Program-made: the position numbers and the translations under genes
Shown: one piece after another, positions 38,515 to 49,240 of the stretch
How the letters are laid out: every line of letters begins with the position of its first letter
Numbering within the stretch: the first letter of the stretch is position 1
Notes under the pieces: model-generated
Told to the model about the DNA's origin: nothing
Databases searched by the model: none
Seen by the model: the letters and a program-made list of their open reading frames with translations, nothing else
Source: an uncultured Elusimicrobia bacterium
GTDB lineage: Bacteria > Elusimicrobiota > Elusimicrobia > Elusimicrobiales > Elusimicrobiaceae
Direction: 5' to 3'
Assembly: GCA_945913025.1 (NCBI GenBank)
Contig: CAMECJ010000006.1
Span: 53,088 to 117,087, forward strand
Length of the DNA stretch: 64,000 bases

Positions 38515-38532
38515 GCGACAAGATGTTGTCGC
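38515..38532. promoter_or_regulatory. 18-bp palindromic operator, copy 1
   Basis: GCGACAA GATG TTGTCGC; overlaps a -35-like TTGTCG 16 nt from TATAAA (38548-38553). Confidence 0.75.
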
Positions 38533-38587
38533 GAACCCGTGTTATCCTATAAATGCAGTAAAAATTACTTATAGGAGAAACAGTCTT

Positions 38588-38698
38588 ATGCCGGAATATA
38601 AATATGAATGCAGCAAATGCAGACAGTTATTTACTTATAGCTTTCCGCCTGCAGGTTTGAAGTGCCCTACTTGCGGTGGCAGCTTGTTTAGAAAGTAA
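38588..38698 (+). CDS. Small zinc-ribbon protein (FmdB-like, 36 aa)
   Basis: MPEYKYECSKCRQLFTYSFPPAGLKCPTCGGSLFRK: two CxxC knuckles; ATG preceded by AGGAGA. Confidence 0.8.
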   Translation: MPEYKYECSKCRQLFTYSFPPAGLKCPTCGGSLFRK

Positions 38699-38845
38699 AT
38701 TCTTTCTTCGGGGGGAGGATAACATCTCCCCCTGAAATTTCTAAAAACCGTAAGGAGTAGTTGTTTATGCGGCTTAATGTTGACTATAAAAATGGTCTTT
38801 GACCGGAAGGTGGGAACGAAAAAAAGACCACGATGATTATAACGA

Positions 38846-39157
38846 ATGACGAACAGAATTAAATTTGAAGATATCCGAAAAATGTATAAAGAATACGCCG
38901 ATAAAATAATGCGTTTGGGTACGGAACGCATTATAGAAACGGAAATCCCTTGGGAGAAAGTAGCTTGGGGGCGAGAGATTGGCACGCAAAAAATTCTTCC
39001 GTTTTTTCATAAAAAAGCACCGGACGGTACGGCCCAATTATTTTGTATCTGCGAAAACGGGCAAAAACAAACGATGAGCAACCGCGATTTTGCCTATATA
39101 TACGATTTGTGGGACAAAGACGGTCATTTGCTGCATATTGCCTTTTACGGGTTTTAA
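38846..39157 (+). CDS. Hypothetical protein
   Basis: 103-aa ORF with typical composition; no recognised family. Confidence 0.5.
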   Translation: MTNRIKFEDIRKMYKEYADKIMRLGTERIIETEIPWEKVAWGREIGTQKILPFFHKKAPDGTAQLFCICENGQKQTMSNRDFAYIYDLWDKDGHLLHIAFYGF

Positions 39158-39246
39158 ATGGTTTTTTTAACGCCGCCCTGTGTTTTGCGCAGGGCTATTT
39201 AAATTGGCGGAAATATCGTTATTATCCCCACACGTGAGTGCAAATA

Positions 39247-39286
39247 GATAAAAAACGCCGCTCCATTATTATAATAGGGCGGCGCG
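39247..39286 (-). terminator. Putative terminator for the minus-strand WYL operon
   Basis: Minus strand: CGCCGCCCTATTATAATAATGGAGCGGCGTTTTTT. Confidence 0.65.
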
Positions 39287-39301
39287 ACAACGTGTTGACG
39301 T

Positions 39302-39703
39302 TTAATGTTTTAATTTAATTCCTCTCTGTTTGTAACACCATTCCCAGCCGTTCGGACGTTTCGATTTGTATTCTTTATTTAATCGACTGTTTTCCTCGGT
39401 TGTAATCCATGCCGTTTTAAGCTCTTTTTTTAATATCGTTTCGATAGATTTTCCGGTTATTATCTCTTCAATTAATGTAGATAAAGGATTGCAATGCTCT
39501 AAAATAATCCCTTTTAAGAAAGCATTTTTTTTCTTATTAGCACGTTGTTTAGGAACGGTCAGTTTGTGTAAATCAGATCCTTTGGCCTTTTCATCCCAGA
39601 GTTTCTTTGCTTCTTGCGAGATATAATCTGCTTCTCTTCTTTCGGAAGCAAAATAGAGGGTGGTTCTGATTAAAACTTTGATGTGTTTTTTGTTTCTTCG
39701 CAC
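39302..39703 (-). CDS. Hypothetical protein downstream of WYL regulator
   Basis: 133-aa basic ORF overlapping the preceding small ORF by 34 bp. Confidence 0.5.
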   Translation of the reverse strand: MRRNKKHIKVLIRTTLYFASERREADYISQEAKKLWDEKAKGSDLHKLTVPKQRANKKKNAFLKGIILEHCNPLSTLIEEIITGKSIETILKKELKTAWITTEENSRLNKEYKSKRPNGWEWCYKQRGIKLKH

Positions 39704-39813
39704 TTCGTGGCATTATATAGTTTGCGTAAATTTTTTAATACGTTAATTACTTCTTTTTGTTTTGGAGAACATGAAAGAGGTTCTGCTTTAAAAGGCTGTT
39801 TGTTGTTTGACAT
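39670..39813 (-). CDS. Small hypothetical protein (47 aa)
   Basis: MSNNKQPFKAEPLSCSPKQKEVINVLKNLRKLYNATKCEETKNTSKF; ATG preceded by GGAGGTG. Confidence 0.5.
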   Translation of the reverse strand: MSNNKQPFKAEPLSCSPKQKEVINVLKNLRKLYNATKCEETKNTSKF

Positions 39814-39815
39814 AC

Positions 39816-40733
39816 TTACACCTCCTCCAAATACGCTTTTAATTGCGTTTTTACCAGTTCCGCCAGCGGGGCGGGGGATAAAACTTTTATCTCCGGTATC
39901 CAATGGAAAATGGTGTGCTTGATTTCATCTTCCCCTGTGGCGCGGCAGGTAATAATCAGGCTGCCGTCGGGGCGTTCCTCTTGTATTTGCTGCAAGGGGA
40001 AGTATTTTTTTACTTTAAAATACTTGGCAATTTTGGCCGAAGCGTGCAGGGTAACTTCCAGCTCCCGTGTTTTGTCAAACCAAATGTTTGTACCTTCGCG
40101 GATGATTTTTTCTATTTCGGCGTTATATTTAAAAAACTTGCCCAGCGCGGTGGCTGAGGTAATTTTTTCCAGGCGGAATTTTAACAGTTTATCGTCGTCC
40201 GTCAGTGCCAAAAGATACCAAAACCCTTCCACCCACAGCAGTTTTAACGGGCGTACGGGGTAGCAGGCGCGCTTACCTCCGTCGTAACAGACAGTTACTT
40301 TTTCCCGCGCGCGGATACATTCGCTCAGCTCCTTTGTAATAGCGGTATCGGGGTATTCTTCGCCGCCGGATAGTTTGATAAAAAACGGGCTGTTATCTTC
40401 TGCGTCCAGCAACCGTTTTTTAAGTAAATCAAAAGAATTCCCAAAGGTTTTGCCTAGCGATTTGGCCATCTCGCTCATAAACACCAATAGAGAGGCTTCC
40501 TGTTGCGAAAGGTGCGCTTTTTCTAACGAAAACCCTTCCATAAACGCATACTCGCCCGCGCGCGGGCAGTAGAGCGGAAAGTCCGCCTCTTGTATAGTGC
40601 GCATATCGCGCTGCAGCGTGCGCAAGGATACGCCCAATTCGTCCGCCATATCCGCCAGGCAGACGGGGCCTTTGTCCAAGGTATTTAATTCGTATAACAA
40701 ACGGGTAATTTTGTTTTGCATTTCTTTTTGCAT
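39816..40733 (-). CDS. HTH + WYL-domain transcriptional regulator (YafY-like)
   Basis: HTH ADELGVSLRTLQRDMRTIQEADFPLY; WYL region VTVCYDGGKRACYPVRPLKLLWVEGFWYLLALTDDDKLLKFRLEKIT. Start at 40733 chosen because the longer ORF start overlaps the operator. Confidence 0.88.
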   Translation of the reverse strand: MQKEMQNKITRLLYELNTLDKGPVCLADMADELGVSLRTLQRDMRTIQEADFPLYCPRAGEYAFMEGFSLEKAHLSQQEASLLVFMSEMAKSLGKTFGNSFDLLKKRLLDAEDNSPFFIKLSGGEEYPDTAITKELSECIRAREKVTVCYDGGKRACYPVRPLKLLWVEGFWYLLALTDDDKLLKFRLEKITSATALGKFFKYNAEIEKIIREGTNIWFDKTRELEVTLHASAKIAKYFKVKKYFPLQQIQEERPDGSLIITCRATGEDEIKHTIFHWIPEIKVLSPAPLAELVKTQLKAYLEEV

Positions 40734-40756
40734 ATATCTAATGATAGCAGAAAATG

Positions 40757-40774
40757 ACGACAAGATGTTGTCGT
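40757..40774. promoter_or_regulatory. 18-bp palindromic operator, copy 2 (between divergent WYL gene and small ORF)
   Basis: ACGACAA GATG TTGTCGT. Confidence 0.78.
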
Positions 40775-40823
40775 GTACAAATTATACATTAGATCCGTAT
40801 ATTTAGGAGGATCCCGAACTGAT

Positions 40824-41066
40824 ATGACAAATAATAAGATACTGCCCAAAGGAGCTAAAACAGCAGATGATGCTTGGACGGAACTCTTGCAGCATAGTTT
40901 GATGCGGTATTGGAATATCCTGTTGGATTGCGTACAGGCAGAGGGGTTGAAGGGGTTGCACAGGCCCGCCGCTAAAACAGCCTTAACCGAAGTGCGCGGG
41001 ATATTGCCGCCGCTCTCGGCGGTGGAAATACTGGTGTTTTGGCAATTAGGCCAAGATTTCAATTAA
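40824..41066 (+). CDS. Small hypothetical protein under operator copy 2 (80 aa)
   Basis: MTNNKILPKGAKTADDAWTELLQHSLMRYWNILLDCVQAEGLKGLHRP...; preceded by AGGAGG. Confidence 0.6.
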   Translation: MTNNKILPKGAKTADDAWTELLQHSLMRYWNILLDCVQAEGLKGLHRPAAKTALTEVRGILPPLSAVEILVFWQLGQDFN

Positions 41067-41194
41067 TCAAACAACACGTTATGGTTTAAATGTTCAAACA
41101 GGCGATAAAAATTTCTCGGAAAAAAATAAATACCAAGCCAGAAAATATCGCTTTTATCTTGAAGGTGCAGATATCAAAGAAAATAAATAAATAT

Positions 41195-41222
41195 CTCCCC
41201 GCATATAGCGGGGAGTTTCTAT
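41195..41222. terminator. Bidirectional terminator
   Basis: CTCCCCGC ATATA GCGGGGAG TTTCTATTT. Confidence 0.85.
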
Positions 41223-44200
41223 TTAATCTTTACCACTTGCCCGCTGACGGGATAATAAACCAGTCGGTCCAACACCGTATATCCTGCCAGTTTTAATGCG
41301 CGTGTGTAGCAGTTAAACTGCCCCGCGTAATGGCCCGCATAGTGTTTTTCCTGCGGGTCTAATACGGTATTATCCGCCCCCGGGTAGGTTTTGTAGTCCA
41401 CCAATACGCAGCCCAGCGGGGTTTGATAGACAAGGTCCATACTGCCCGTAAAAATCTGCCCGTTTTCGGTATATTTAAACCCCATTTCGCGGTAGATTTT
41501 TTCCGCCGCTCCGTATGTTTGCGCTAAATAATCCATTAGGCCGACGTATGATTTTTCAATGGCGCCCGCATCGGGCAGGTGCGCTTTTAACCCGTGGGCT
41601 AGGATAATTTTTTCCGTCAGTTCGGGTGCGGCTTTTATACAAAAGATTTGATGAATACACGTTCCGACGGCCTGCATATCCGCCCTTGCACCCAACGGAA
41701 TACGGGGTCCGAATTTTGTTTGCAATACCGCCTCGCCCGTTTCCGCTTGTTGGCTGGGCTGTTGGTCGCGCAAAGCAAACGCTTGCGGCGTTTTATCCCA
41801 TTTCAAAACAACGGGATTCTCTTCCTGCCTGCTAAAAGTTTCGCTTTCCTCGGGGGTAAGCTCTGGCAAACGGTTAAATGGTATGCCCGTACCCAACAAA
41901 TCGCAGGCGGGGCTGTCTTTTTGAGGCACATTTACCTTAAGCCCCAGTTGGGTAAACCATTTCAGCGGTTCTTTGCCCGCCAAAGCAAAGAACATTTTGT
42001 TTTTGGCGCGCGTCATACCGACGTATAACAGGTGGGCCGATTCCGCCAAAATCCGCTTGCGTGCGGCGGTAAATTGCGGTATTTCAAAAAGCGAGGGTTT
42101 AAGGATTTCCGGCACTTTTGTTTTGGCACCAAACAGCCACGGCAGAAACGTAATCAGCCGTTTGGGATATAAGTTTTCTATACACGGCTGCTGCACGTTT
42201 AAGATGTGTACGCCGTAAATTTCCTGCTGAATCAGTTTGTCTTCGTTTATCGGGTCCTCGTTGAGCGAAGATAAAACCACCGTATCCCATTGTAATCCCT
42301 TGGAGGTGTGATACGTCTGCAGTTGGATACCTTGTCCGTCCTCGGCCACGGGCGGTTCCAGTAAGGTTAAATAGTCAATAAATCCCGTGGGGGTGGATGC
42401 AAGCGTAAGTTGCAGACAATGGTCCTCGTATTGGACGGCCAAATCTTTTAATAATTGCAAGTTGGCTAACCGTTGGGAGGCGCGGCCCCAGCGCCGCACG
42501 ATACCGGGCAAATCCAACTCCGTAATGACCGTTGATACAAGTCCGCTTACCGACTGCTGCCGCCAAATGGGCCGTTTCTTTAAAATTGTTTGAATAATGG
42601 GCAGATTTGTCAGCCACTCCTGTTTTTCGGGCGATAAATCGGCGTTCCATTGGAGTTTATCGTCAAAAATTGTTCCTACAGGGTAGCCCTGCTCCGTTAA
42701 AAAAGCGATTTTGGCCTTGGCTAAATTGTTTTTTGGGTCAACCAAAAGCGACAAAACAGCCGTCAGCAATTCAGTTTCTTTGTATTCGGCCAGTTTGCCG
42801 CCCGCACGGCTGACGGGCAGACGGTAAGTTTCGGTTAAAATTTCGGCCAGCGTATCTAACGTCTTATTTTTACGCGCCAGTACGGCGATGTCTTTTGCGT
42901 CGGTATTTTGGGCGAGCTTGGCCACCTGTTCGGCCAACGCTTTTAGGTGCACTTTATCCGTTCTGCCGTCAAAAGGAAGGTTCCAATAGGCCAACTCTCC
43001 TCTTCCTTCTTCTAGGGTATTCCGCCCCACTTTTAATTCAATTTGACGCGCCGGAATTTGCGGTGTGAACACGTGCGTAAATACGCGGTTGGTCGTTTCC
43101 ACTAAATCGGCGAGTGACCGGTGGGAGGTGTCCAACGTATCTGTTTGACAATTTTGTGCGCCGGAAGAAATGATACCGCTTACAGCTTGGGTCAGTTCGG
43201 TGTCGCTTCCGCGAAAGCCGTAAATGGCCTGTTTGGTGTCGCCCACCCAAACGGAGCCTTCCAACAGTTCGGACAGACGGTCAAATATCTTTACCTGAAT
43301 GGGGGAACAGTCCTGAAATTCGTCCACAAACAGATATTTATAACTGGACCGGATTTCCTTTTCCACTTCGGGCAGATATAACAAGTCCAGCATATATTTT
43401 TCCATATCGTTGTAGTCGAGCAGCTGTTTGTCGCGTTTGTAATCGGCAAATTGTTTGCGCCAGCGCGCGGCGAGCGCAAACAGCAGGTTGACGAATTTTT
43501 CCTGCCACGGGTCAATATCTCGGCTGTGCCATAAAAGGGCCAAATCCTCTGCGGCTTCTGTGAGGATAGGTTCTTTTTGGTAATATCCTTTAGGCAGTTT
43601 GGCTAAAAAGGTCGATGCGTCAAACAGCCAGCCGACGGACGTTTTGTTCTCTTGCGACGTCAAGCGGGATATTTCCTGCAAGCGTTCCTGCCCGGCAGTG
43701 CTGGGTTTATCTTGCCCGATAAGTTGCAGGGTCTTTTCCAACGCGCCGACGTAGAGCGCCGTGTTTGACGGCAGGCTGACGGCCGCCGGATATATGGTTT
43801 TAATCAGTTCCAGCGATTTTTGGCGGCTTTCTTCCAAATCCTCTATTTGGTACGATACGGTACTCTCCAAAATTTTGCTTAACGGTTTCTTCCAAAAGTC
43901 GTCCGGCGATTGGTTGTAGCCGGCGCCGATATTAAATTCGGTGCGGAAGCGGTGTAAAAAATCCATTTCTGCGGGCGTAGGCAGGCCGGCGAGCGATTGA
44001 TTGAGGTAGAACGATAAATCTTCCTCTGCCAGCACGCCCATTTGGGGGCTTAAACCCAAATAAAACCAGTATTTGTTGATAAACGCGTTGGCAACCCCGT
44101 GAACGGTGCCGATCATCGCTTCGTCCAGCAGGGCGGCATCTTCGTATAATCCTTGGGCGTATAGTTCCCCTTGGGCTTTTTCTTTTAGTTCTGCGGCCGC

Positions 44201-44335
44201 CTGATTGGTAAATGTGGTTAAAATCACTTCGTCCGCACGAACTTGGCCTTGCGAAATCATTTTGGCAAGGCGTTTGGTAAGAGTATAGGTTTTGCCGCTT
44301 CCGGCGCTGGCGCTAATATAGGTAATGTTTTTCAT
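41219..44335 (-). CDS. UvrD/Rep-family helicase-nuclease, AddA/RecB-like
   Basis: Walker A ISASAGSGKTYTLTKRLA, FVDEFQDCSPIQ, DTKQAIYGFRGSD, VLSSLNED..., LLYVGMTRAKN, nuclease motif GSMDLVYQ...VLVDYKTYPG. Confidence 0.9.
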   Translation of the reverse strand: MKNITYISASAGSGKTYTLTKRLAKMISQGQVRADEVILTTFTNQAAAELKEKAQGELYAQGLYEDAALLDEAMIGTVHGVANAFINKYWFYLGLSPQMGVLAEEDLSFYLNQSLAGLPTPAEMDFLHRFRTEFNIGAGYNQSPDDFWKKPLSKILESTVSYQIEDLEESRQKSLELIKTIYPAAVSLPSNTALYVGALEKTLQLIGQDKPSTAGQERLQEISRLTSQENKTSVGWLFDASTFLAKLPKGYYQKEPILTEAAEDLALLWHSRDIDPWQEKFVNLLFALAARWRKQFADYKRDKQLLDYNDMEKYMLDLLYLPEVEKEIRSSYKYLFVDEFQDCSPIQVKIFDRLSELLEGSVWVGDTKQAIYGFRGSDTELTQAVSGIISSGAQNCQTDTLDTSHRSLADLVETTNRVFTHVFTPQIPARQIELKVGRNTLEEGRGELAYWNLPFDGRTDKVHLKALAEQVAKLAQNTDAKDIAVLARKNKTLDTLAEILTETYRLPVSRAGGKLAEYKETELLTAVLSLLVDPKNNLAKAKIAFLTEQGYPVGTIFDDKLQWNADLSPEKQEWLTNLPIIQTILKKRPIWRQQSVSGLVSTVITELDLPGIVRRWGRASQRLANLQLLKDLAVQYEDHCLQLTLASTPTGFIDYLTLLEPPVAEDGQGIQLQTYHTSKGLQWDTVVLSSLNEDPINEDKLIQQEIYGVHILNVQQPCIENLYPKRLITFLPWLFGAKTKVPEILKPSLFEIPQFTAARKRILAESAHLLYVGMTRAKNKMFFALAGKEPLKWFTQLGLKVNVPQKDSPACDLLGTGIPFNRLPELTPEESETFSRQEENPVVLKWDKTPQAFALRDQQPSQQAETGEAVLQTKFGPRIPLGARADMQAVGTCIHQIFCIKAAPELTEKIILAHGLKAHLPDAGAIEKSYVGLMDYLAQTYGAAEKIYREMGFKYTENGQIFTGSMDLVYQTPLGCVLVDYKTYPGADNTVLDPQEKHYAGHYAGQFNCYTRALKLAGYTVLDRLVYYPVSGQVVKIK

Positions 44336-47007
44336 TTTAATGTATTTTTGAAACAAGAAATTTTGGTAAATTTATAAACTGCTTTGACGTCTTTTTTGTC
44401 TTTCCGTTCCGTTTCCAGTGGGAATAAGTGTTTTTCGGGCGTATCTTGGCAGTAGGGGATGTTTTCCGGCTCTATGCCCTCGGCCTGTTCAATCTGTCCT
44501 CTTTGGATTTGCTCCCTGCGGTAGCGGTACGAACGGGCTAGCGGTTCTACAAGATTTTCGCGCGACTGTGGATCAATGTGCAGGACATTTATTCCTTTCC
44601 ACTTATGCGTGCTGACTAAAAGCCCTGCCGGCATAAGGAAATAGGCGGTAGGGATGTTTTCGGTTTCCGTTTCTTTTGCCAAGAGAGCTTTGTACAGCGC
44701 CAACTGCAGCGAGGTATTTTGGCGCAGGGCGTTTATGTGATGTTTGCCCGACGTCCATTTGAAATCAAAAATAACGTGTTGGCCTTGTTCGTCCTGCAGG
44801 TGCATATCGATAAACCCGTGTAAAAGAATATCCGGCTCCTGCAGCGCAAAGCCGAGCGTATGCTGTACTCCTTGTTCGCATTTGACGGCGCGCAGACCGT
44901 TATTTTGCATAATGTCCGCAAGATGCTGCAGACACGTTTTTAAATCCCGTTTAAAAACCTGTTCCTCTAATTTATTTTCCGGCAAAAGCAGGATCATACC
45001 CTTTTCGTTTAACGTGCGGGCGTAAACTTCATCATACGATTTTTCGAACTTCTCCTGCGCTTCAGCCCCCGTTTTTCCTTCAAACAAGCGGGCGATAACG
45101 TCGTGGGCCACATTGCCTTTTGCGCGGGCGGTGTTTTGGGCGTCCAAGTCCAAATAATCGTTACAGCGGGCCAAATAGGTAAACGCGTAATCGAGCGGGT
45201 TTTGGATAAGCATATCAAGCGAGGTGGCGCTTTCTTTTTGCGGCCAGTCTAGCAGATTGGTTTGACGGAAACGGATTTCTTCCACTCTTTGCGAATTATC
45301 CAGTATTTCCGCCGTTTGCAAGAAATCCTGTGATACTTTACCTGCGCGCGTAATAAGCGCCAGATTCTCGTCTTTAAAATGACTTTTTAAGCGGTTTAGT
45401 ATTGGGCAGGCGGGCAGTTTTTGGCTGCCGCGTCTGGCGCAGGTAATCAGCGTCAGGTTTTCTTGGGCCAGGGTAAAGGTCTGCAGTTGCATGGTTTGCC
45501 GAAAATCGCTTTCCTGTTGCGGACTCCATATCAGCACGCCCTGTTCGGTCAGCTTATCCTGTTCTTGCGGGCTTAAAAAGCCAAAACAGGAGTCAGCCAC
45601 CGTGTTTTTGTAAAAATCGCACCAGATAATCCGTTGGGCAGAAGCCGCCAACTGCGCAGGGGAGGATATTATAAACCGTGCACCGGCTTGGGCTTGATAC
45701 TGCACAAAATCAGTAGGCGTATAGAGGTTTTTTACCCAACTTTCCACCGTAGCAAAAGGAAGCAGGTCGGCGGTTTCGTCCAATAGCAGCATGGAAACAG
45801 CCTCTAATGTTTCGGTTAATTTATCTAACTGGGCTACTTGAGCCAAGGCACCTTTTTCCGTCAGCAAAGCGCGCTGGGTTTTCGTCCACGCGGTTAATTG
45901 GAAGATAAATCTGCGCAAAGCGTTTGTTTGGATGCCGTTTTCGGTCGGTACAGGTAAAAAAGTGTTAATTAAGTCCTGCCGCTTGGCGGAGTCTTTGGGG
46001 TTCTCGTTGATAAATTGGGAGATGACTTCCTTGCAGCCCGGGTGTTCTATCCCGCCATTTTCTGCCAGTGTTTTGGCTAAACGGTAGCGGAAATTGGACG
46101 GAAGCGGCTGTGCGGGAACCTGCAGCCATTGTAACAAGGTGTGGATATTGCGCGGATAGGTAAACAGTTCCAGCCCCAGGGTGAATAATTGCACCAGCGG
46201 CGGATTGCTTTTTGGCGTTACGGAGCCCGCCTGCGGTTTGCCGGCAAGCGTTAGGTAGTTGTCCAGGGCTTTATTATCCGCGTTAATCCATACGTTAAAA
46301 GCGTTGTCTTGCAAAGTAGCTAAATAGGCAAGTGCGTCTTGTTCTTCTTCAAAATGGAGCAGCTGTAAACTGGGGTCGTTCGCCTGAATTGTAATGGCGT
46401 CGGTCTGTCTGCTCAGCCAGCGGGCGACATTGTGCAGGTTATCGTTTTTATAAGGCGTGTGGGGCGTATATTCCACCGTTGTCCCCCGCTTTTTAAGCAA
46501 GCGGGTTAAGCGGGCGATTTCCGGCGGAAATAAATCTTCTTTACAGGGAAGTATCAGCGTGCTTCCCGTTGGAAGCGGACAGGAAGTTTCCAAAAGCGTC
46601 AGCATATTTTGCAGCCGTTCCGGCAGGCCCATACAGCTATAGTATTGTTCCACGCCCGCTAAAACGTCCAACCGCGGACTGACGCCCGTTATTTTGCCGT
46701 TCCATCCGGCTTGAACCAATTTGTCGCGCCACGCCAAACACGCTTTGGCGGTGCCCATTTCCGTGGTGCGGAAAGAAGCGGAGAGAATATTATCCGGATT
46801 TTCCGTCATATAGCGTTTAAACGCCTGATAATACTTGGCCAGCCGCTCGGTAAACGGAATGGGTTTTACGTAAATGCCGGCGTGCAGTTCCAGTAGATTT
46901 AATAAAGCGTTGGTGTCAGCGACGCAGCAGTCTAACAAAATGTTTTTGTTAGCGGGTAAATTTAAAAATGTGCTGCCCGTATATTCGGGGCTAAAATAAA
47001 TTTTCAT
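44332..47007 (-). CDS. AddB-like PD-(D/E)XK nuclease partner
   Basis: ENPLDYAFTYLARCNDYLDLDAQNTARAKGNVAHDVIARLFEG and GFIDMHLQDEQGQHVIFDFKWTSGKHH; N-terminus lacks an obvious Walker A; overlaps the helicase gene. Confidence 0.8.
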   Translation of the reverse strand: MKIYFSPEYTGSTFLNLPANKNILLDCCVADTNALLNLLELHAGIYVKPIPFTERLAKYYQAFKRYMTENPDNILSASFRTTEMGTAKACLAWRDKLVQAGWNGKITGVSPRLDVLAGVEQYYSCMGLPERLQNMLTLLETSCPLPTGSTLILPCKEDLFPPEIARLTRLLKKRGTTVEYTPHTPYKNDNLHNVARWLSRQTDAITIQANDPSLQLLHFEEEQDALAYLATLQDNAFNVWINADNKALDNYLTLAGKPQAGSVTPKSNPPLVQLFTLGLELFTYPRNIHTLLQWLQVPAQPLPSNFRYRLAKTLAENGGIEHPGCKEVISQFINENPKDSAKRQDLINTFLPVPTENGIQTNALRRFIFQLTAWTKTQRALLTEKGALAQVAQLDKLTETLEAVSMLLLDETADLLPFATVESWVKNLYTPTDFVQYQAQAGARFIISSPAQLAASAQRIIWCDFYKNTVADSCFGFLSPQEQDKLTEQGVLIWSPQQESDFRQTMQLQTFTLAQENLTLITCARRGSQKLPACPILNRLKSHFKDENLALITRAGKVSQDFLQTAEILDNSQRVEEIRFRQTNLLDWPQKESATSLDMLIQNPLDYAFTYLARCNDYLDLDAQNTARAKGNVAHDVIARLFEGKTGAEAQEKFEKSYDEVYARTLNEKGMILLLPENKLEEQVFKRDLKTCLQHLADIMQNNGLRAVKCEQGVQHTLGFALQEPDILLHGFIDMHLQDEQGQHVIFDFKWTSGKHHINALRQNTSLQLALYKALLAKETETENIPTAYFLMPAGLLVSTHKWKGINVLHIDPQSRENLVEPLARSYRYRREQIQRGQIEQAEGIEPENIPYCQDTPEKHLFPLETERKDKKDVKAVYKFTKISCFKNTLK

Positions 47008-47053
47008 AAGAAAAGTATAGCGTTTTTATATCAACTTGTATTGTTTTTTTGCG

Positions 47054-47701
47054 TTACTGGCGCGTACCGTCTTGGGTTGTAATACTTTGTGCGGTCAATT
47101 CAACTTCGCACCAAAAATCATTTAGGCGCAGTAAATCGGGTATGGAATAAGGGCGATGTTCGCAAATCTCGTGTATGGCATAACAGATGATAATATTTTT
47201 AAATTCAGGGTGATCTTGAAAGGGGCCTTCGTTCCAACTGGAGCCATCGTCTAATGGCGTTTGACGGGAGTGCACGTGCAGGACAGGTTCGGGGTAGGCG
47301 GAGTCCAGACATTCTATCATTAGCGCAAAGTGAGAGCCGTAATAGCTGTCATCCGGCAGCGTAAGAACGGACTCCGGCCCGTTAAAAGGGATTGCCAAGC
47401 GGCCTTCCAATTCGTAGTCGTCATCAAAATCAGGGTTGCTTATAAGCGTGCGCTGGTTTTCCATTTGCTTTACACGGAGGTGCAGTTTTTGGGTTAGCGT
47501 ATATAAGTGCTTGTTGACCTGGATAAACCGCTGTATATTTTGGGGCGTAGGTACAAACATTTCATTAAGTATACGGCAGCGTTTTTTTAGGGCAGTTTTT
47601 AAGGGATTTCTCTTTTCCGGATGTTTAAGTAAATTTCCAAACGGATCATTTCCAATCAGGGTAATAATGCTTTTTTCCAAAGTGATAAGTGTGTTTTTCA
47701 T
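47054..47701 (-). CDS. Hypothetical protein divergent from operator copy 3
   Basis: 215-aa ORF; no recognised family. Confidence 0.55.
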   Translation of the reverse strand: MKNTLITLEKSIITLIGNDPFGNLLKHPEKRNPLKTALKKRCRILNEMFVPTPQNIQRFIQVNKHLYTLTQKLHLRVKQMENQRTLISNPDFDDDYELEGRLAIPFNGPESVLTLPDDSYYGSHFALMIECLDSAYPEPVLHVHSRQTPLDDGSSWNEGPFQDHPEFKNIIICYAIHEICEHRPYSIPDLLRLNDFWCEVELTAQSITTQDGTRQ

Positions 47702-47782
47702 AGTTTTTGTACCTCGTAAGGGTTGTATTGTTTTATTTTTGATAAACTAATTTGTCTTTTAAACTTATTATGGCTTACTGCT

Positions 47783-47800
47783 GCGACAAGGTGTTGTCGC
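47783..47800. promoter_or_regulatory. 18-bp palindromic operator, copy 3
   Basis: GCGACAA GGTG TTGTCGC (20 bp with flanking T/A). Confidence 0.78.
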
Positions 47801-47831
47801 ACTATATTGGTAGACTAGGTATACAGGAGGA

Positions 47832-48183
47832 TATGTTTATGAAAAAGACCCAAGAAGACTTTTTTATGAGAAAAAATACATATAATGCCAGCCCCATCAC
47901 CCTTGCAGAGCAAGTTTATAAAGCGTGTGAGCAGGGGAACGGCGCCGCAGTTTTTTTGTATTCCGGTCAGCCGTTGCCCAAAGAAGAATATCCGTTTTTA
48001 GATGAGTTAATCGGAAAGTATACGATGTTAAATCAGGGCCCCACTCCAAGTGATATTTTGTTGTTTTTAGGCAAACATTCTGCTTGTATGACGGATCCTG
48101 CTGTTGTGCTGCAAATTATGAAAGTGCTGGATTGTTGGAAGATATATTTATGCCGTTACCGCAAGGCGGATACTGGGCTATAG
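47832..48183 (+). CDS. Hypothetical protein under operator copy 3
   Basis: MFMKKTQEDFFMRKNTYNASPITLAEQVYKACEQGNGAAVFLYSG...; preceded by AGGAGG. Confidence 0.6.
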
Positions 48184-48199: not shown

Positions 48200-49240
48200 A
48201 TGGACAAGCAACAGGTAAATGACAAAATAAACCGAGTAGAAAATTCTCCCAAAAATGCTTATAACGCCTTTGTTGCCCAGAGATTAAGGCAGGGTGTGCT
48301 GAATGTAGATCGGGCCGCCATAGAGTGCGAAGTGAATAAACGAACAATCCAGCGGGATATAAAAATTTTGAAGGCCGCCGGTGTCCGCATTTCTAAATCG
48401 CTGACCACCAATTCCAATTACAAGTTGGACCCGGAATTTCGGTTCTTGGATCTTCATATTACGCAGGACAATTTAGCAAATTTCCTACACACCATGAAGG
48501 GCATGATGATGTTTAGCCGGCAACCGTTAGATTTATTAAACCCCCTGCAAAAAGAACTGTTTGAAATGGCCCAGCACGATGAAGTAAACCGAAGAAAAAT
48601 CCAAATCAATGCGGATAGAGATTTCCGTTTGCATACAACACCCGCTCAGTTTAACGGTATGCTTTTGCAAGGGGAAAGCGACCTTACGGCACCAATATTT
48701 CGCTTGCAGGCCTTCTTTTTAGCAGATGATATGCTTAATAAGGTGGAGGCGGATCGGAACTATGGTTATCAAGAATTGCAGCTTTCCGAGATGCTGCGTG
48801 TATCTGCACATTGTGCGCGTATTACTCGTAAATATAACGAAGCCATTGACACTTTAAAAATGCAATTAAAAAAGAAGCCAAAAGATGCCTGGTCTTGGGG
48901 TGAGTTGGCTTTTGTGTATTACGAAAAGGGGGATATTGCTTCTGCCATACAAACCTTAAAAACAGGTTATCAAAAAACATTGGAAGAAACATTAAACTTG
49001 TATTTAGCGTTTTTATTAGGGGAAGCTAAGCGATACGAGGCTGCCATAAAATGCTTTAAGAGCGTTTATTCCGCGCCGGACCTGGTCTTGTCTTTTTCTG
49101 CAGAAATGCACAAGCGGGCGGGCAAGTTAGATTTGGCTTTGCATGAAATTGATGAAGCTTTGGCTATCTTCCCAAATTCTATTTATCAAGCCCAGAAAAA
49201 AATGATTGAAGTTTCCTTTAACTCTAAAACTAAAGAATAG
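48200..49240 (+). CDS. HTH-TPR fusion protein, putative regulator
   Basis: HTH-like VDRAAIECEVNKRTIQRDIKILKAAGVRI followed by TPR-like repeats (NEAIDTLKMQLKKKPKDAWSWGELAFVYYEKGDIASAIQTLKTGYQ). Confidence 0.7.
   Translation: MDKQQVNDKINRVENSPKNAYNAFVAQRLRQGVLNVDRAAIECEVNKRTIQRDIKILKAAGVRISKSLTTNSNYKLDPEFRFLDLHITQDNLANFLHTMKGMMMFSRQPLDLLNPLQKELFEMAQHDEVNRRKIQINADRDFRLHTTPAQFNGMLLQGESDLTAPIFRLQAFFLADDMLNKVEADRNYGYQELQLSEMLRVSAHCARITRKYNEAIDTLKMQLKKKPKDAWSWGELAFVYYEKGDIASAIQTLKTGYQKTLEETLNLYLAFLLGEAKRYEAAIKCFKSVYSAPDLVLSFSAEMHKRAGKLDLALHEIDEALAIFPNSIYQAQKKMIEVSFNSKTKE

Follow-up and report, generated by a model that had tools for sequence, protein, structure and literature searches.

Palindromic promoters point to a probable WYL-type activator of a dispersed defence and DNA-processing regulon in Elusimicrobiaceae

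The locus and its palindromes

The window analysed here is a 64,000-nucleotide (nt) stretch of DNA from an uncultured Elusimicrobia bacterium and forms part of a 1.76-Mb draft genome, whose nearest named relatives are the gut and rumen Elusimicrobiaceae. Inside the window is a segment of about 10 kb that hosts a WYL gene, an AddA/AddB-like pair, several small open reading frames (ORFs) and a protein with helix-turn-helix (HTH) and TPR regions. It is flanked by housekeeping genes, FtsA/FtsZ-like and pterin-synthesis-like upstream and glycosyltransferase-like downstream (names read from the ORFs). The segment also carries three palindromic 18-mers, which the original prediction took for the operators of a local WYL regulon. 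We find that these palindromes belong to a real, well-defined and genome-wide regulon. We consider it fairly likely that they are the sites of a DriD/PafBC-type HTH-WYL-WCX activator, which would drive defence and DNA-processing genes in this family.

The palindromes are exact and lie where they were first reported, at 38515..38532 (operator 1, GCGACAAGATGTTGTCGC), 40757..40774 (operator 2, ACGACAAGATGTTGTCGT) and 47783..47800 (operator 3, GCGACAAGGTGTTGTCGC). They are the sole zero-mismatch matches in the window, and the genes originally named with them (at 38588, 40824, 47833 and 48200) are indeed located downstream of them on the plus strand. Behind operator 1 a -10 element, TATCCT (38543..38548, plus strand), begins 11 nt after TTGTCG, a spacing that is conserved genome-wide. 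The first gene of this promoter encodes a zinc-ribbon protein of 36 amino acids (aa) at 38588..38698 (plus strand; Zn_ribbon_8 2.6e-6, under the Pfam cutoff), and a similar 36-aa zinc-ribbon gene stands behind the same promoter type in a relative (G021, locus L152). A 103-aa ORF without a Pfam match (38846..39157, plus strand) is a possible second gene of the unit.

Operator 2 has a -10 at the 11-nt distance on each side and thus forms a bidirectional promoter. One, TATCAT (40741..40746, minus strand), belongs to the WYL gene itself (39816..40733, minus strand; Pfam WYL 3e-8, WCX 3e-12), while the other, TACATT (40785..40790, plus strand), serves an 80-aa ORF (40824..41066, plus strand). The core of this ORF matches a 146-aa protein (48% identity over 48 aa) that in relatives lies behind the same promoter and ahead of a deiminase gene. 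The true start of the WYL gene is most likely the ATG at 40733 (MQKEM), which aligns in 17 sequences, and not the TTG at 40763 inside the operator. With this start and the -10 at 40741-40746, the WYL transcript would be almost leaderless.

At operator 3, the -10 TAGACT (47811..47816, plus strand) again follows TTGTCG at 11 nt. The first gene here is an ORF of about 115 aa (47833..48183, plus strand; no Pfam match) and the second encodes the HTH-TPR protein (48200..49240, plus strand; HTH_11 5e-6 and TPR). Residues 31-120 of the latter match the PADLOC WYL model, its HTH region is similar to the one in the WYL protein, and its relatives lie close to other WYL loci. On the other side of operator 3 the AddA-like UvrD helicase (41219..44356, minus strand; UvrD-helicase 1.7e-47) and its partner, the AddB-like PD-(D/E)XK nuclease (44332..47007, minus strand; PDDEXK_1 1.6e-17), are separated from the palindrome by a 215-aa ORF with no Pfam match (47054..47701, minus strand). 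The link to AddB is weak in the window, because this side offers only that intervening ORF and CATAAT (47767..47772, minus strand), a weak candidate that lies 11 nt from the operator and differs from TANNNT at one position. In another genome (G031) the promoter is found 96 nt upstream of the start of a 78% identical AddB homologue.

The window holds a single one-mismatch copy of the palindrome, at 39284..39301, with a minus-strand TATAAT at 11 nt and no clear gene on that side. This copy is possibly a decoy or a chance occurrence.

Promoter code and genome-wide distribution

Site occurrence was judged by pattern searches, with the reversed motif as the control. The pattern CGACAAN4TTGTCG has nine perfect copies in the host genome against none for the control. 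Three of these lie in the window; the other six are on contigs C1, C5, C8 and C20, which brings the contigs with perfect sites to five. When the -10 is included, as CGACN8GTCG-N11-TANNNT, there are 18 matches and again none for the control. Across 66 genomes, CGACAN6TGTCG-N11-TANNNT gives 108 matches against 1, although counts of this kind are inflated by kinship among the genomes. A chance origin of the palindromes is excluded. The genome-wide search also removes the word ‘local’ from the regulon: the 18-match pattern recurs on seven other contigs, and the nine perfect sites over five contigs led us to reject a purely local system.

The spacing is the most distinctive feature of this promoter code. 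In each of the nine perfect sites, exactly 11 nt separate TTGTCG from a following TANNNT on one or both flanks. We tallied 58 distinct orientations of perfect palindromes from this genome and its genus, without requiring a -10, and found TANNNT at offset 11 in 43 of these; any other offset occurs 0-10 times. The right arm had originally been read as a -35-like element, with TATAAA, TAGATC or TAGGTA beginning 16 nt later. This reading is rejected, as offset 16 is found in 4 of the 58 orientations and offset 11 dominates. The -10 takes an extended form, TGnTAnnnT (T in 47/58 and G in 28/58 orientations), and the right half-site sits at about -29 to -24. At the normal distance a -35 would fall within the palindrome, and the best TTGACA matches at 16-18 nt spacing score below those of shuffled sequences. 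These are promoters without a -35. The loci of the -35 survey were partly chosen by their -10, and the spacing claim makes no use of their spacing counts.

The WYL clade and its known relatives

The window regulator is a single 305-aa gene whose product is an HTH-WYL-WCX transcription factor, with an N-terminal HTH, a central WYL and a C-terminal WCX domain. WYL and WCX score over their Pfam cutoffs and HTH_11 just below, and the W-Y-L region is kept in the aligned relatives. A cutoff of E<=1e-30 yields three WYL genes in the host. One of these, at C1:343823, is a 63% identical paralogue with a perfect site directly upstream. This site is also two-sided, with TATACT and TATCCT as its -10s. Where a -10 stands on each side, as at these two WYL genes, a single palindrome can act for a divergent gene pair.

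Within the genus, the close clade of the window protein spans 57-100% identity. We read the DNA upstream of 19 close WYL genes (the window gene, the paralogue, L059-L074 and L051). In 15 of these a site with 0-2 palindrome mismatches and a TANNNT at 11 nt faces the gene's own start, mostly about 34 nt ahead of the conserved WYL start. The same promoter is found in a second genus of the family, directly upstream of a 62% identical WYL gene in the one genome there that has such a gene (G083). Promoter matches occur in 18/18 genomes with the WYL clade versus 12/48 without it (Fisher p = 1e-8, kinship uncorrected). That the paralogue and most close relatives share the site upholds the original view that these palindromes are operators of a single WYL-type regulon, with the WYL gene among its members. 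This clade is by far the best candidate regulator, because it co-occurs with the sites and the distributions of LexA and the HTH-TPR protein do not fit. By the distribution of sites and genes, its assignment as their putative regulator is well supported.

Among the distant WYL genes (36-42% identity), 0/13 have a qualifying site in the 200 nt ahead of their start; one, L080, has a site at 245 nt. A related version of the promoter, CGACAAACRTTTGTCG, with -10s on both sides, is found at L154:2727, L158:3577 and L168:2723, at 1-2 kb from more distant WYL genes (36-40% identity), some of which are interrupted by an in-frame stop (G044, G033).

How does this system compare with the WYL regulators already described? 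PafBC promoters follow tTGTCRgtg-8nt-TannnT, i.e. TTGTCR-N11-TANNNT (PMC5656591), which is identical to the code found here, and they too have no -35. PafBC lodges between sigma domain 4 and the promoter, with PafB recognizing a -26 motif, and single-stranded DNA switches the regulator on (PMC11804915). However, PafBC is a heterodimer of PafB and PafC, whose genes form a pair or a fusion; it reads one half-site and targets DNA repair. In our genome the palindrome is complete and frequently has a promoter to either side, recA is absent from the targets, and no second WYL gene lies beside the 305-aa gene in the window. The system is thus set apart from PafBC proper. The DriD homodimer binds ATACGAC(X)7GTCGTAT, a site that spans the -35 and keeps the same distance to the -10 throughout; it is activated by single-stranded DNA and acts at promoters with poor -35/-10 elements (PMC12340889). 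The likeness is in the CGAC/GTCG half-sites of a palindrome over the -35 and in the fixed -10 distance. The inner spacing differs, 7 in DriD and 8 here (CGAC-N8-GTCG), and the sites are not those of DriD proper. DriD has a small regulon (didA, bapE, recJ, dnaG), whereas the present one is larger and rich in defence genes. The polymerase contacts of the two known activators differ as well, with DriD touching the beta subunit and the C-terminal domain of alpha. Both share with our promoters a half-site at a fixed -10 distance (43/58 at 11 nt) and the lack of a good -35.

Similarity searches give the same ranking. DriD is the best PDB sequence match of the window protein (E 7e-8), and in a fold search with the predicted structure DriD comes first and PafBC next, both above CapW and BrxR; as the template-modelling scores against WYL proteins of known structure are low, at about 0.4, only the ranking of the matches is used. 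SiwR, an activator in Mycobacterium smegmatis, also has a palindrome between -35 and -10 and needs the -26 region. It is a homodimer, the oligomer state that we propose here. That said, SiwR has been shown to act on one adjacent operon, and its 19-bp palindrome is imperfect and contains a GGA element. The WYL repressors BrxR and CapW are linked to defence islands, and inverted repeats close to its own promoter are bound by BrxR (PMC9122601, PMC9122588). They resemble the present case in their inverted-repeat operators and their link to phage defence. They are, however, structurally more distant local repressors of their own island, in contrast to the dispersed, activator-type promoters described here.

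Proposed mechanism, rival explanations and target genes

From this layout we infer binding, dimerisation, activation and a signal as follows. The WYL activator (39816-40733), and its paralogue elsewhere, would bind CGAC-N8-GTCG across the -35 region, probably as a homodimer like DriD. The bound protein would recruit the housekeeping RNA polymerase to promoters that have only an extended -10, and since the site is symmetric, genes on both sides could be driven. The signal, judging by the relatives, is probably single-stranded DNA acting on the WYL domain, arising from DNA damage or from the invasion of phages or mobile elements. This signal would induce the regulator itself along with dispersed defence and DNA-processing genes. 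A half-site near -29 to -24, followed at 11 nt by an extended -10, is the PafBC/DriD layout, and leads us to expect activation and positive autoregulation. The direction of control is thus probably the opposite of that first proposed, in which the bound protein blocks RNA polymerase; the absence of a -35 and the activator layout do not bear this out. Autoregulation itself is still expected, in that the site faces the WYL gene's own start, with a sign that would be positive rather than repressive. A more specific version is that the homodimeric activator acts as an SOS-like, LexA-independent immunity switch, in which invading single-stranded DNA induces dispersed defence genes and AddAB in trans, often bidirectionally. 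The defence set would comprise type I and IV restriction, AbiEii, candidate nucleases and the tandem AAA+ cluster with a deiminase. We advance this version tentatively, and rate it a little short of even.

Could the WYL protein instead be a repressor of the BrxR/CapW type, released from these promoters upon infection? The precedent of BrxR and CapW at defence islands, the BrxR repeats near its own promoter, and the overlap of the operator with the polymerase-binding region all speak for this view, which was that of the original prediction. It is nevertheless unlikely: polymerase would find no -35 to use unaided, repression has no need of a fixed 11-nt spacing in dozens of promoters, a spacing that matches PafBC/DriD, and it is these two that top the fold search. 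It is less likely still that another regulator, LexA or the HTH-TPR protein at 48200, binds the palindromes. LexA is present in the host (C2:173552), and the HTH-TPR protein has a WYL-like HTH and sits behind operator 3. But LexA scores over the family cut-off in 61/66 genomes, including most of those that lack both WYL genes and sites, whereas sites are found in 30/66; and neither the host recA nor two lexA loci in relatives carry a site. A LexA/SOS box reading was rejected, as the sites do not co-occur with LexA and those loci are siteless. The HTH-TPR protein, found in 9/66 genomes against 30 with sites, was rejected as the sole binder. There are two more matches to LexA-like DNA-binding domains besides lexA (211-aa frames), at G000:C1:313112 and C16:17596, which recur in several genomes and are possibly phage or element repressors.

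Hardly any credence can be given to the idea that the palindromes are mobile repeats or sites of recombination instead of regulatory elements. Several sites do lie near serine recombinases and in islands, but arms, spacing and -10 are conserved even though the flanks and the four bases at the centre differ from site to site, and target genes begin shortly downstream; with centre and flanks so diverged, we rejected a mobile repeat. A further possibility is compatible with the WYL activator and would refine it, namely that two or more WYL paralogues of overlapping specificity share the sites and that, in some genomes, more distant WYL proteins may act through them too. The three host WYL genes and, in four genomes, a CGACAAACRTTTGTCG site 1-2 kb from a 38-40% identical WYL gene favour this, whereas the sites missing just upstream of the distant genes count against it. 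We regard it as possible, though less likely than not.

Several points weigh against a DriD/PafBC-type activator of the close clade. Four of the 19 close WYL genes have no qualifying promoter facing them (L061 lacks a site; in L063, L064 and L068 the -10 faces away only). Of the 30 genomes without a WYL match at 1e-30, four have promoter matches (G008, G023, G036, G039); most of these assemblies are incomplete, and draft genomes may miss WYL genes. Kinship inflates the counts, and the WYL structure model is modest (predicted local distance difference test 78.5, predicted template-modelling score 0.39). Many targets are of unknown function, and with recA and the two lexA loci siteless a classical DNA-damage regulon is not shown.

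The first genes behind the host promoters include both WYL genes, HsdM (PADLOC 4e-187), a PDC-S26 nuclease (4e-82), AbiEii (4e-21) and two tandem AAA+ ATPases (the one scanned is IetA-like, 1.6e-35). The others are an ankyrin protein, the 146-aa protein followed by the deiminase, the zinc ribbon, a FlgO-like protein and other small proteins. By raw count, about 5 of the 16 non-WYL host promoters lead to recognizable defence genes. In relatives the targets include the same AAA+ ATPase (13 genomes), GmrSD, a C5 methylase, DUF2779, DUF2130, a PNKP-type phosphatase and AddB.

Described WYL regulators divide into activators that respond to DNA damage (PafBC, DriD) and local repressors in phage defence (BrxR, CapW). 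The present regulon appears to unite both, as it would place many unlinked defence genes of a distant phylum under the PafBC/DriD activator code. The code is specific (18 matches against 0 in the host) and can be used to find new members and to name candidate defence genes whose function is unknown. Do bacteria co-induce several defence systems via a DNA-damage-type signal? This regulon opens a direct test.

A stand-alone HAD_PNKP polynucleotide-kinase-type phosphatase is targeted repeatedly (L145:2832-3275, L149:3582-4022, L166:3705-4145), which suggests that nucleic-acid end repair is part of the response. Another recurrent arrangement is a cluster of a WYL gene, a small protein, a peptidyl-arginine-deiminase-like protein, a variable protein of 160-290 aa and a tandem AAA+ ATPase of about 660 aa (L137:6162-11994, L141:8403-13048, L148:4659-10566, L176:3517-8716). 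Some copies also carry a protein of about 260 aa from an unknown family and a DUF2779 nuclease. This cluster may represent an undescribed defence system.

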